DNA of 44,159 nt, from the IMG/VR virus record IMGVR_UViG_3300027733_000083, positions 1 through 44,159 of that record. One strand, 5' to 3'. This stretch comes from a virus. Positions 3,513 to 10,685 of this stretch are shown piece after piece. The translations under genes and the position numbers were made by a program. Each line of letters starts with the position of its first letter. Within the stretch, counting starts at the first letter, position 1. The notes beneath the pieces are model-generated. The model did no database searches. It was not told where the DNA came from and saw only the letters and a program-made list of their open reading frames with translations.

Positions 3513-3833
3513 ATGCAAGAGTTAAAAAAAATACAGATCCAGCTCAAGAAAGAACTGGGCGGGGCGAGTTTAAATCATTTGATTAATTATGCTTCTTTAG
3601 TTTATAAAGAATACATAGATTTTCACTTTTCTGTTTTTCCATCTTTTGATAAAACAAAATTTGAAAATAAAGTTAAATTAATCTTCGCTCTCAATGACCA
3701 AAATATATTTAAATCTTATTTTATCTTACTTAACGACCAAAACCAAGCACTTAACATTTTCGGGCAATCTGAAGAGTTCCAAAGAAAACTTTACGATGCA
3801 ATACAAATTATTAAAAATATTAACAATAAATAA
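3513..3833 (+). CDS. Hypothetical protein, 106 residues
   Basis: This soluble, mostly helical protein has no recognised domain. The ribosome binding site GGGAG lies in the last codons of the upstream gene, and ATG follows the stop directly, so translation is probably coupled. Confidence 0.65.
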   Translation: MQELKKIQIQLKKELGGASLNHLINYASLVYKEYIDFHFSVFPSFDKTKFENKVKLIFALNDQNIFKSYFILLNDQNQALNIFGQSEEFQRKLYDAIQIIKNINNK

Positions 3834-3838
3834 AACAT

Positions 3839-4018
3839 ATGCACAAACTTTATTTAACAATCATTTTATTATTATTTGGCACGGCTCTAGCATTTACGAA
3901 CCATGTTTTATTCATGGTTTTTATATTTATTTGCTTTTGTTTTATGCTAAATATTTTAATCAATTGTATTTCATCAATTATTTTAAACGAAAAAGAAGAT
4001 ATTGACATTGACAAATAA
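3839..4018 (+). CDS. Two-helix membrane protein, 59 residues
   Basis: The frame runs from ATG at 3839 to TAA at 4018. Residues 5-19 and 24-47 are hydrophobic, separated by a short turn (FTNH), with an acidic tail (EKEDIDID). This hairpin topology is found in holins and other small phage membrane proteins. No family is recognised. It is the last gene before the folded intergenic stretch at 4019-4352. Confidence 0.5.
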   Translation: MHKLYLTIILLLFGTALAFTNHVLFMVFIFICFCFMLNILINCISSIILNEKEDIDIDK

Positions 4019-4126
4019 ATTTGGATTTTATAAATTTGTAAAAAATGATTTTTTATTGTTTTTTTCATAAAAAGAAAAAGTTAATATTTGAGCAAGAGGG
4101 GTTTCATATCCCCTCTTCGCTTACTT

Positions 4127-4161
4127 GTGATAATGATTTTTTGGTTGCTAATCATTATCAC
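4127..4161. repeat. Perfect 12-bp inverted repeat
   Basis: GTGATAATGATT at 4127-4138 is the exact reverse complement of 4150-4161, with an 11-base loop. No T-run follows, so it does not look like an intrinsic terminator. It may be a hairpin in RNA or an operator or origin in DNA. Confidence 0.85.
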
Positions 4162-4305
4162 TGGGTAGCGAAAAGCCAAGCGGTTCGATAAGATACAACT
4201 GCGAGAAACGAAGTATGCTATCCTTTTAAATTTAAATCTGGTGGATCAGGTTTATATTCACTCCACACATGAGTTCAAATATTTTAAAAAAATAAATTTT
4301 TATGG

Positions 4306-4349
4306 GGTCAAGAATCCACGCTTGACCTCGCCAAAATCAAAGCGTGGAG
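4306..4349 (+). promoter_or_regulatory. Possible SD-sequestering pseudoknot before the gene at 4353
   Basis: A 7-bp hairpin (GGTCAAG 4306-4312 with CTTGACC 4321-4327) has the loop AATCCACG. Loop bases TCCACG (4315-4320) are complementary to CGTGGA (4343-4348), which overlaps the ribosome binding site GGAG (4346-4349) four bases before ATG 4353. This is the geometry of an H-type pseudoknot that hides a ribosome binding site, as in some small riboswitches. No known aptamer consensus is recognised. Confidence 0.5.
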
Positions 4350-4352
4350 CAT

Positions 4353-4562
4353 ATGAAAAATCTATACATTACAAATATAATTTTTGTCACAATTATATTA
4401 ATTATTACTATACTATATAATTATTGGTCAGTATTTGTAAAAATTGCCCTCGCTCTTGTTTTTTTAATTTGCGGTATTGGTGCATTTGTTGCATTAAGTT
4501 TTTTTATTTTATTAGCAATAGTAGTAATTAAAGAAAAATTAAATTTGACTAATAAAAATTAA
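4353..4562 (+). CDS. Two-helix membrane protein, 69 residues
   Basis: ATG 4353 with GGAG upstream is preferred over the GTG at 4344. Residues 6-24 and 31-62 are strongly hydrophobic, with a Lys/Asn-rich cytoplasmic-type tail. No family is recognised. Its ribosome binding site lies in the possible pseudoknot, so expression may be regulated at translation. Confidence 0.65.
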   Translation: MKNLYITNIIFVTIILIITILYNYWSVFVKIALALVFLICGIGAFVALSFFILLAIVVIKEKLNLTNKN

Positions 4563-4570
4563 TAAATATT

Positions 4571-4819
4571 ATGAAAGAGCAAAATTTTTTTGCAAATATA
4601 GGAAATCGGAAAATGGAAAACATCTTTATAAATTCACTAAAAGAAGAAATTGAAAGACAAAAAAACAGACAGATAGCTAGACTGTTTGATGATTTAAAAG
4701 GCTTTCCAATGCCCCCTTTGGTTGAAAAAAGAATTAAAGAGGCTGTTTACGAAATTCAAAACGAATTAACAAAATTTATACAGGAAAACGGTTATGACAA
4801 CTCAAATACAACAAGATAA
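4571..4819 (+). CDS. Hypothetical helical protein, 82 residues
   Basis: The product is charged and helical (SLKEEIERQKNRQIARLFDD near residues 23-42). No family is recognised. The start at 4571 is chosen for its AAATATT-ATG context; an in-frame ATG at 4613 is possible. It overlaps the DUF1376 gene by 26 nt, which places it in the replication operon. Confidence 0.6.
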   Translation: MKEQNFFANIGNRKMENIFINSLKEEIERQKNRQIARLFDDLKGFPMPPLVEKRIKEAVYEIQNELTKFIQENGYDNSNTTR

Positions 4820-5615
4820 ATTTATATATTTTCCAATATATTTAACTGATTATGTATCAGATTCAAGAAAATTAACAATGCTTCAAAGAGGGGCGTTAAT
4901 CGATTTATCAGTATTATATTTTCAAGAAGATTTAAAAATTAACTATACAAAAGAACAAATTTATAGACTTGTTTTTGCATTTTCAAAAGAAGAGCGGGAA
5001 GCAATTGACTTTATATTAGAAAATTATTTTACTCAAAGCGAAAATAAACCTATGGGTTTTTATTGGGTTTCTAGTAAACTAAATCAATTAGGCGATAAAA
5101 TATTGAAGCGATTGAATTCAAGCAGGGAAAACGGGAAAAAAGGAGGGAGGGGAAAGAAAAAAGAAATTAAACCCATGGGTTCAAATCCGCTTAACCCAAA
5201 ACATAACCTAGATGAAAGCATACTAAATGAAACTAAATTAAATGAAACTAAATTAAAAGAAATTAATCCAATTTATAAAAAACTATCAGATGGTTTATTA
5301 TTTATCTTAGAAGCAAAACTTCAAAGAAAATTATCTTCTAAAAATTGGGAAGACGAAATTAAAAAATTAATAGAGAAAGATTTATCAGTTAGACAAAATC
5401 CAATCGAAGATGTAGTGCAAGCAATACAAACAATAGCAAATAATTATGGTAAAGAATATTTTCCAGTAATTCAATCAGCTAAAAGCCTAAGAGAAAAATT
5501 TACTAAAATTGAGGATTATGTCAAAAGAAACTCGCAAGGTAAAAATAATCAATCATCAGCATTAGACCAATACAATTCAATATTAAACGATTTAAATGGA
5601 GATTTTAATGAATAA
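4794..5615 (+). CDS. DUF1376 replication-associated protein
   Basis: Residues about 9-100 match the DUF1376 pattern (YFPIYLTDYVSDSRKLTMLQ, RGALIDLSVLYFQE, then a Gly/Lys-rich SRENGKKGGRGKKK linker). Such phage proteins resemble the lambda O/DnaT class of replisome organisers, with a winged-helix-like N-terminus. The middle holds two NETKL repeats. The C-terminal third (about 180-273) is helical and may contact helicase or loader. It lies directly upstream of a possible loader and the DnaB-like helicase, which supports a role in initiation. Confidence 0.75.
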   Translation: MTTQIQQDKFIYFPIYLTDYVSDSRKLTMLQRGALIDLSVLYFQEDLKINYTKEQIYRLVFAFSKEEREAIDFILENYFTQSENKPMGFYWVSSKLNQLGDKILKRLNSSRENGKKGGRGKKKEIKPMGSNPLNPKHNLDESILNETKLNETKLKEINPIYKKLSDGLLFILEAKLQRKLSSKNWEDEIKKLIEKDLSVRQNPIEDVVQAIQTIANNYGKEYFPVIQSAKSLREKFTKIEDYVKRNSQGKNNQSSALDQYNSILNDLNGDFNE

Positions 5616-5947: not shown

Positions 5948-7255
5948 ATGGAACAAGAAAATTTTAATCAAGAGATAGAAGAAGCTTTATTAGGCACCAT
6001 TCTTTCAAATAACATGTATTTGTTAAAATCACCAAACCTTGAAGCTAAACATTTTTACTTTGATGATTATCAAAAGATTTTTGAAGAAGCTATTAAAAGA
6101 ATTGGAGCTGGTGAGGTTGTTGACTTTAGAATTATTTCAACATTTGTTAAAAACAATGGAATTGATTTTAAAATTATAAAAAACCTGTCTAACGCAACTG
6201 CTGGATTAGCTGATATGGAATCTTATTCAAATGAAATAATTAGATTGTGGCAAATAAGAGAGTTAAAAAAGATATTAACTTCAATAATAAGCGATAAAAC
6301 TTCCGATTTTAATGCTATTAAAACAAAATTAGAGGGAGATATAGCCGACATATCAATAAATATGTCTAATCAGCCTAAAAAGATTGACAAAGTTATTGAT
6401 GATGTTTTATCAAATCATCAAAAAGAATTAATCTTTACAGGCTTTGATAAATTAGATATTCTAACTGGAGGCTTTGAGCTTGGTAATCTAGTTATTATCG
6501 GTGGCAGACCATCAAGCGGAAAGACTACATTTTGTTTAAACTTTGCTAAAAATGTTTCTTTGAGCCATGGAGTTTTATTTTTTTCAATGGAAGTATCGGA
6601 CAAAAGCCTAGCAAGAAAATTTTTAAACGAAACAACGGGGGCAAGTGCTTATAGATTAAAAATCGGAGCAACAACCGAAGCGGACAAGCTATCAATAGAA
6701 AATAATAGACACACTTGGAAAGATTATAATTTAATACTCGATCAAGAAAATGGCATAAATCTTTTAACGATCAGAAGCAAGATTAAACGGGCAATGCTTA
6801 AAAATGATATTAAAATGATTTGTATCGACTATTTGCAATTAATCGCAAGTTCTGGTAAGGAATTTTCAAGAGAACAACAAATATCAAGAATTGCTGAGGG
6901 TTTGAAGAAAATAGCAAAAGACTTCAATATTGTTGTTGTCGCCTTGTCCCAATTATCAAGAGCGGGTGATTCGAGAGAAAATAAAAGACCAATTCTAAGC
7001 GATTTAAGAGACTCAGGAGCTATTGAACAAAATGCGGATATTGTAATGTTTACGCATAGAGAAGAATATTTCTTAGAGCGAGAAAAAGTTCCTGAACACT
7101 CAAAGCATTATGGCGATTGGCTTAAATGCTACAATAATGTAAAGGGCAAAGCAGATATAATTGTTTCTAAGAATCGTGAGGGCGAATGCGGAGACATTTT
7201 ATTTAACTTTAACGGCAAACAAAGCAAATTTTGGGAGGCAAATGATTCATATTAA
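5948..7255 (+). CDS. dnaB: DnaB-like replicative DNA helicase
   Basis: This 435-residue protein has the DnaB layout: an N-terminal domain (about 5-110, EEALLGTILSNN), a linker, and a RecA-like ATPase from about 160. Walker A is GGRPSSGKTT (185-194) and Walker B is ICIDYLQL (291-298). The SQLSR (334-338) and SDLRDSGAIEQNAD (351-364) motifs follow. It unwinds the phage chromosome at the fork and would be loaded by the two upstream products. Length and motif order are typical of full-length phage DnaB. Confidence 0.95.
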   Translation: MEQENFNQEIEEALLGTILSNNMYLLKSPNLEAKHFYFDDYQKIFEEAIKRIGAGEVVDFRIISTFVKNNGIDFKIIKNLSNATAGLADMESYSNEIIRLWQIRELKKILTSIISDKTSDFNAIKTKLEGDIADISINMSNQPKKIDKVIDDVLSNHQKELIFTGFDKLDILTGGFELGNLVIIGGRPSSGKTTFCLNFAKNVSLSHGVLFFSMEVSDKSLARKFLNETTGASAYRLKIGATTEADKLSIENNRHTWKDYNLILDQENGINLLTIRSKIKRAMLKNDIKMICIDYLQLIASSGKEFSREQQISRIAEGLKKIAKDFNIVVVALSQLSRAGDSRENKRPILSDLRDSGAIEQNADIVMFTHREEYFLEREKVPEHSKHYGDWLKCYNNVKGKADIIVSKNREGECGDILFNFNGKQSKFWEANDSY

Positions 7256-9472: not shown

Positions 9473-9549
9473 ATCAGATTAGCTCAGTAGGTTAGAGCAA
9501 AACACTCATAATGTTTGGGTCGGTGGTTCAAATCCATCATCTGATACCA
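9473..9549 (+). tRNA. tRNA with CAU anticodon (Met or Ile2)
   Basis: The cloverleaf is complete: acceptor ATCAGAT/ATCTGAT, D stem GCTC/GAGC, anticodon stem AAACA/TGTTT with loop CTCATAA, T stem GGTGG/CCATC with loop TTCAAAT, discriminator A and encoded CCA. The anticodon stem lacks the three G-C pairs of initiator tRNA. It is therefore an elongator Met tRNA or a lysidine-modified Ile tRNA reading AUA; AUA is a plausible need in so AT-rich a genome. Confidence 0.93.
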
Positions 9550-9550
9550 T

Positions 9551-9627
9551 TGGTAGGTAGCTCAGCTGGATAGAGCAACAGCCTTCTAAGCTGTAGGTCG
9601 TGGGTTCAAATCCCTCTCTACCAACCA
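9551..9627 (+). tRNA. tRNA-Arg (UCU anticodon)
   Basis: Acceptor TGGTAGG pairs with TCTACCA, the anticodon stem is ACAGC/GCTGT with loop CTTCTAA, and the T loop is TTCAAAT, followed by A and encoded CCA. It reads AGA, which is frequent in these genes. It is separated from the first tRNA by a single base, so both probably come from one precursor. Confidence 0.95.
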
Positions 9628-9644
9628 AAATCGTAAATATTTAA

Positions 9645-10140
9645 ATGGCTAGTGTTGTGGCGGAATATAGACGCGGTTAAACAATGCGCAAAATAGTGGT
9701 CGAACACAACGCTAGAAATAGCTTGAAAGGTAGAGGACGCTTCTCGGAAAGTTTGCTTGCAAAGGTGTAAGTCCTTTGCCAACGCTAGCTTTATAAATAC
9801 TTATTCGGTGGGTCGCACCCGCAAGTGGTTTTTGAACGAAGTAAAATTCGCACCAGTCAAAAACTGCTATACAGCTGGGAAAGACCGCACAACTCGGCAC
9901 GGGTAAAGAAGAGTGCAGAAATATTAGACAACGCAAGTTGAGCTAGTTAAATTGCTCGAAAGAGCTTCATTAATCAAGCGGTTAAGTTTAGTTAATTATA
10001 TTTAATACTAAACCTCTGGGACGAGCAAGCTAATTACCATCATCGCTTTGGTAAGTTCCAAGATTAGCAAGTGGGGAATGTCTAAGAAAGTTCCACTTTA
10101 AGGCACAGTTAGACCAGTTAGCCTTCTGTAAAAAGGCAAA
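9645..10140 (+). ncRNA. Large structured non-coding RNA candidate, about 500 nt
   Basis: The interval has no plausible gene and is richer in G+C than its flanks. Helices by eye: 11 bp 9649-9659/9705-9715; 7 bp 9759-9765/9773-9779; about 12 bp 9824-9835/9857-9868; 7 bp 9986-9992/10007-10013; 7 bp 10029-10035/10062-10068; 6 bp 10069-10074/10093-10098; 5 bp 10121-10125/10133-10137. Three hairpins carry GNRA loops (GAAA 9715-9718, GCAA 9933-9936, GAAA 9958-9961). Size, phage setting and position behind tRNAs recall ROOL and GOLLD RNAs, but I cannot confirm either. It shares the promoter at 9391. Confidence 0.7.

Positions 10141-10523: not shown

Positions 10524-10685
<162 letters not shown>

Follow-up and report, generated by a model that had tools for sequence, protein, structure and literature searches.

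A structured RNA with co-varying kissing loops and start-site strand ahead of the replication operon of uncultured phages

Here we report a structured RNA of uncultured phages, in which two mutually complementary hairpin loops and a third strand next to a start codon co-vary in sequence. The element occupies positions 4090-4352 on the + strand of a 44,159-base phage contig from IMG/VR (this whole stretch of DNA is referred to as the window), and at least 20 contigs of related phages have a homologue in the corresponding position. The family is new and well supported, its parts are of known kinds, and the fold has been maintained while both its sequence and the downstream gene changed many times. 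With moderate confidence, we propose that 4090-4352 serves as a structured 5' leader that each phage carries once; competition between its kissing loops and a start-site pseudoknot would control translation of the first gene of the early operon. The loop-loop-start-site triple has been rebuilt in at least four sequence versions, and evolutionary evidence that pairings compete is seldom so direct.

The element is flanked on its 5' side by a promoter-like site and on its 3' side by the ORF that opens the replication operon (Table 1), with genes for a primosomal-type protein (4794-5615) and a DnaB-like helicase (5948-7255) as further downstream neighbours. Judging from the promoter-like site, a transcript would start near 4043. 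In most relatives, a TTGAC site with TAnATT or AAAAAT as the second hexamer is found 50-130 bases 5' of H1, the first hairpin of the element; no TTGAC-type site was detected 5' of H1 in L009, L011, L014, and L166. A TTTTTCATA-like motif, also 5' of H1 (about 4060-4071), is kept even in L022 and L176/L188, and L022 carries just 5' of its element (3640-4735) two ORFs with pentapeptide-like repeats (GANL/GADL). The stretch had initially been annotated as gene-free, and this holds: there is no ORF of at least 80 aa within 4090-4352 and no conserved frame. An ATG frame of 48 aa at 4045-4191 has no counterpart in the relatives, several of whose leaders lack any ATG frame of at least 15 aa, and a coding role for the leader was rejected since the reading frame is not conserved across relatives. 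The only terminator-like site in 3600-4800 lies at 3898-3920, with none inside 4090-4352 or just behind the element, in agreement with the earlier remark that its helices are not followed by a T-run.

Table 1. Features of the element and its flanks in the window; H1, H2, D, and the a/a' and b/b' helices were compared in segments cut by hand, which favours pairing.
Feature	Position	Strand	Observation
Promoter-like site, TTGACA-17-TAAATT	4008-4036	+	10 of 12 consensus matches
H1 hairpin, 8 bp (4094-4101 with 4110-4117)	4094-4117	+	double-sided changes at all 6 pair positions compared; each of 7 distinct versions is paired
Strand a, TTCGCTT	4116-4122	+	4116-4120 (TTCGC) pairs with a' (4168-4172, GCGAA) across H2
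H2 hairpin, 12 bp (4127-4138 with 4150-4161)	4127-4161	+	double-sided changes at 10 of the 11 pairs compared; 96.6% of cells paired
Strand X = b (4163-4167, GGGTA) + a' (4168-4172)	4163-4172	+	b pairs with b' across D
Helix B, 7 bp, encloses D	4163-4169 with 4217-4223	+	found in the fold
D hairpin, 6 bp (4180-4185 with 4197-4202), loop CGATAAGATAC	4180-4202	+	double-sided changes at all 6 positions; 41 of 47 cells paired
Strand b', GCTATCC (TATCC = 4219-4223)	4217-4223	+	pairing compared with b
P1 hairpin, 8 bp (4233-4240 with 4247-4254), loop 1 GTGGAT (4241-4246)	4233-4254	+	97.9% of cells paired; 3 double-sided pairs
Spacer between P1 and P2	4255-4303	+	about 49 bases in the window versus 4-12 in relatives
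P2 hairpin, 9 bp (4304-4312 with 4321-4329), loop 2 AATCCACG (4313-4320)	4304-4329	+	95.4% of cells paired; 7 of 9 pairs double-sided
Start-site strand k, CGTGGAG	4343-4349	+	CGTGGA has the loop 1 word and forms a pseudoknot with TCCACG of loop 2
First ORF after the element, 69 aa, membrane-like	4353-4562	+	no family match

The predicted fold of 4090-4352 has an energy of -76.7 kcal/mol, compared with -56.6 +/- 4.7 kcal/mol for dinucleotide shuffles (z -4.27; none of 200 shuffles was as good). With z -4.07, the fold of the minus strand is almost as good, and thus the energy alone cannot assign the strand, whereas one-sided wobbles do. In 54 distinct helix versions read on the + strand, cut by hand with wobbles allowed and hence favouring pairing, we counted 404 Watson-Crick, 28 G·T, 1 A·C, and 3 other pairs; since a structure of the other strand would give the reverse ratio of G·T to A·C, the paired molecule is RNA of the + strand. 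GNRA tetraloops occur in relatives, namely GAAA in H1 of L176, and GAAA and GCAA in two extra hairpins of L018-type cores. All six helices of the initial annotation were recovered at their places on the + strand, and its suggestion of a non-coding RNA or long regulatory leader gains support from compensatory changes, RNA-like strand-specific pairing, and the position before the replication operon. The fold it described had missed the pseudoknot helix a/a', as well as the loop-loop and loop-start-site complementarities. No Rfam 15 family, including the ROOL, GOLLD, OLE, and IGR IRES models, reached its gathering threshold in 4090-4352, and the best match of a search at lax thresholds was sub-threshold and not credible (RsaF, 25.4 bits versus 60). 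The likeness of one domain to part of a tRNA gained no support: ARAGORN placed tRNA genes in the window only at 9473-9549 and 9551-9627, as did Rfam, and conservation of a D arm is not seen in the enclosed arm, which has other sequences in L022, L028, L176, and L207.

Relatives were gathered by scans with the DnaB-like helicase and the primosomal-type protein, and further copies by pattern scans. The most distant elements share little sequence with that of the window and retain the same order of parts; they are found in L022 (DnaB 84% identical) and in L176 and L188 (the L176 DnaB is 45% identical to that of L022). When eight element-bearing records were searched with a covariance model of the 3' domain, each contig gave one strong copy, always at this place. 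L022, L176, and L188 were left out of model R2, which nevertheless finds all three at the syntenic place, weakly (E 0.01-0.13 in 73 kb). The homologues maintain the pairing through compensatory changes, and a loss of both sequence and pairing was not what the comparison found. Among the relatives, H2, D, and the 3' domain recombine freely as modules. A blastn search against cultured phages returned chance matches only and no homologue, a pattern scan of genome contigs revealed no host or prophage copy, and a TerL scan of genomes gave no match. The 15-mer TCGCCAAAATCAAAG alone is too common, as nearly all of the matches listed lack the element; L156 and L209, which match it and weakly match model R1, look like chance occurrences in genes of other phages and were set aside.

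The 5' core comprises hairpins H1, H2, and D and two helices formed across H2 and D. The order of strands a-b-a'-b' makes it an H-type pseudoknot, and both a and b' reach into the shared bases TAGC, so that the two helices partly compete. The b/b' helix is paired in 100% of cells (16 of 16 sequences) with double-sided changes at 3 of 5 pairs, and the b versions GGGTA, GGATA, GGAAA, GGCAA, and AGTAA are each matched by their partner. The a/a' helix is paired in 96% of cells and shows one double-sided change, from G-C to A-U, in 5 of the 16 sequences. Overall, 97.3% of the core cells are paired and 14 of 21 pairs have double-sided changes; the covariation score, computed on segments cut in the pairing-favouring manner described above, is 0.658, compared with 0.237 +/- 0.023 in shuffles (0 of 500 as high) and at most 0.133 when the partners are slid. 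The loop word GGTTGC of H2 (4143-4148) is conserved within the close group, and the D loop CGATAAGATAC in most relatives, though not in L022, L028, L176, or L207. Two further loop contacts were considered and dropped: the H1 loop TTTCATAT is perfectly complementary to the start region ATATGAAA in the window and does not co-vary with it, and a pairing of the D loop with AGTA is broken in L010.

The 3' domain connects the fold to the start codon. Across 12 sequences, 93% of its cells are paired, 14 of 23 pairs show a double-sided change, and the covariation score of 0.491 exceeds the 0.212 +/- 0.022 of shuffles (0 of 500 as high). In every intact relative, loops 1 and 2 are complementary over 5-7 bases. 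The terminal base pair of the kissing interaction co-changes between GTGGAT/ATCCAC in the window and GTGGAG/CTCCAC in L011, L005, and L036, and further loop pairs are GTGCG/CGCAC (L014, L159, L166, L021), GGGGGG/CCCCCC (L022), and CTTGCTC/GAGCAAG (L176). When loop 1 and loop 2 are compared across types, the best partner of each loop is the one from its own type. In each type, the loop 1 word recurs in the strand 5' of the start codon (CGTGGA, CGTGCGG, GGGG, TTGCT), and the three partners co-vary in four types: GTGGA, GTGCG, GGGG (L022), and TTGC (L176/L188). In the window, CGTGGA ends 4 bases 5' of the ATG at 4353, and the spacer word CTCCAC (about 4262-4267) is likewise complementary to the start-site strand. 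Since only 11 of the window's 50 genes have a Shine-Dalgarno-like motif, the start-site strand is more than an ordinary ribosome-binding site.

The two contacts of loop 2 differ in strength of support. For loop 2 with loop 1, the empirical p-values are at most 0.0023 each and about 1e-9 combined, which makes the kissing pair firm. For loop 2 with the 15 bases 5' of the start codon, p is 0.003 in the window, 0.0003 in L014, 0.02 in L022, and 0.10 in L176, combining to about 3e-6; support for the start-site pair is thus good in the near types and weak in the most distant one, and in L188 the pair amounts to 4 bp only. Calculated as isolated duplexes, the rival pairings have nearly equal energy in the window (-8.5 and -9.0 kcal/mol) and are unbalanced in L014, L022, and L176, and either may be the stronger in relatives. 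In L016 and L004, the 3' half of P2 and strand k are gone, which indicates that the P2/start-site part can be lost.

The gene behind the element is not constant. The first ORF starts 2-9 bases 3' of the start-site strand, and comparison of 23 loci sorted the first ORFs into 12 unrelated groups. In L002, L159, L166, and L167, the second gene is preceded by another copy of the element's 3' end, CGTGGAGCATATG, suggesting gene exchange at this boundary. A constant leader followed by an ever-changing first gene marks a spot where phages take up new early genes. Repeats of CGTGGAGCAT(AT)ATG were also seen before second genes, without hairpins, in L002 (145-375), L159 (9221), L166 (9399), and L167 (3202).

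Translation control is favoured by the three-partner co-variation at the start codon, and a possible course of events can be outlined, in which transcription, the on and off states, and the signal are inferred. The + strand would be transcribed, probably from the promoter at 4008-4036. The core would fold during transcription, and P1 and P2 would form next, able to kiss through GTGGAT and ATCCAC. Kissing of loop 1 with loop 2 would leave the start region open and translation on; the emerging start-site strand could then take the place of loop 1 on loop 2, so that the start region closes and translation is off. Kissing and the start-site pseudoknot are mutually exclusive. Their balance might be set by co-transcriptional folding, by a bound phage or host protein, or by a ribosome on a short frame at P2. 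In the window, a frame of 7 codons (MGSRIHA, 4302-4325) begins with an AUG at the 5' base of P2, and ribosomes on this frame would be expected to melt P2. The AUG is present in all relatives except L176 and L188; the length of its frame varies, and in L005, L011, and L022 it runs into the next gene.

The same two loops could instead pair between molecules. The element would then be a free-standing RNA that acts in trans or assembles into homo-oligomers, and the start codon would be incidental, since two fully complementary loops are equally fit for intermolecular pairing. ROOL and GOLLD are phage RNAs joined via kissing loops (PMC12286853), and the free variation of downstream genes would also fit. 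This alternative nevertheless appears unlikely to us: a third copy of the loop sequence, co-varying with the other two, stands directly 5' of the start codon, no terminator was found in or just behind the element, and the element is shorter than ROOL, GOLLD, and OLE and matches no Rfam family.

A location right after a promoter-like site and ahead of the replication genes, together with independence of the following gene, would suit an antitermination element of the put/nut kind, whose nascent RNA binds RNA polymerase and allows read-through of early-operon terminators. We regard this as decidedly unlikely, since it leaves the three-way complementarity at the start codon unexplained, known put elements consist of two hairpins of about 70 bases, and L022 and L176 have lost the best-conserved loops (GGTTGC, GATAAGATAC). 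The element may be a portable phage RNA module that directs ribosomes to any gene behind it, its kissing-loop/pseudoknot fold ending 2-9 bases before the start codon and replacing the usual start signal in a phage with few Shine-Dalgarno sequences, a proposal that we consider a long shot; if it is true, early genes that the phage newly acquires would land at the element.

A replication origin or priming site, acting through single-stranded DNA hairpins or a primer transcript, had been among the initial suggestions. In its favour are the location beside the primosomal and DnaB-like genes and the single copy per contig; the one-sided wobbles and the GNRA tetraloops of relatives point to RNA, the coupling to the start codon also speaks against an origin, no iterated sites were recognised on reading the stretch by eye, and GC skew has no clear switch at 4000-4400. 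An origin is very improbable, with a primer transcript still conceivable. Hardly probable at all is a riboswitch with the pseudoknotted core binding a small ligand and the 3' domain as its expression platform: the aptamer-like core is followed by mutually exclusive pairings at the start codon, but it has no invariant unpaired bases, and its loops are entirely different in the related L022 and L176, unlike those of ligand aptamers.

For the translational leader that we favour, the closest known mechanism is most like that of the plasmid repZ-type leaders, by analogy and not by membership. In the repZ/repA leaders of I-complex and IncL/M plasmids such as ColIb-P9, a start-region pseudoknot is described as a translation switch (Asano and Mizobuchi 1998, cited in PMC10724649). 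As in those leaders, a loop of the phage element has its partner strand beside the start region (the co-varying pair is loop 2 and 4343-4349), and a rival pairing competes at the same loop. The rival of the repZ pseudoknot is an antisense RNA, and the pseudoknot activates; in the phage element, by contrast, the rival is a second loop of the same RNA, and the pseudoknot would block. The downstream gene here is also not a fixed initiator gene, and we found no sequence relation. There are no minus-strand promoter-like sites inside the element; two lie at 4441-4412 and 4401-4374, in the downstream ORF, which differs between relatives. Leaders of the repZ type also have a translated leader peptide overlapping the structure, and the frame to compare with it here is the one opened at P2, of 7 codons in the window and of other lengths or fused in relatives.

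Other structured RNAs share single traits with the element. The intergenic IRES of dicistroviruses has a pseudoknotted domain followed by a hairpin loop that pairs with the strand just before the first codon, an order of parts that recurs here, although the element has no Rfam match. The put antiterminators of phage HK022 are, like the element, structured RNAs early in a phage operon; they are smaller and have no start-site pairing, and the element matches no family. Kissing loops and pseudoknots are shared with ROOL, GOLLD, and OLE, structured RNAs of phages or bacteria (PMC12286853), which differ in being larger and not tied to a start codon. Elsewhere in the window, about 500 gene-free, GC-richer bases at 9640-10140, directly 3' of tRNA-Met and tRNA-Arg genes, contain many helices (z -1.95) with no Rfam match, in a setting that resembles that of ROOL and GOLLD RNAs. 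Farther on, at 10524-10685, a small ORF built of GGAGC(A/G/T) repeats encodes an Arg/Ser-Gly-Trp repeat peptide.
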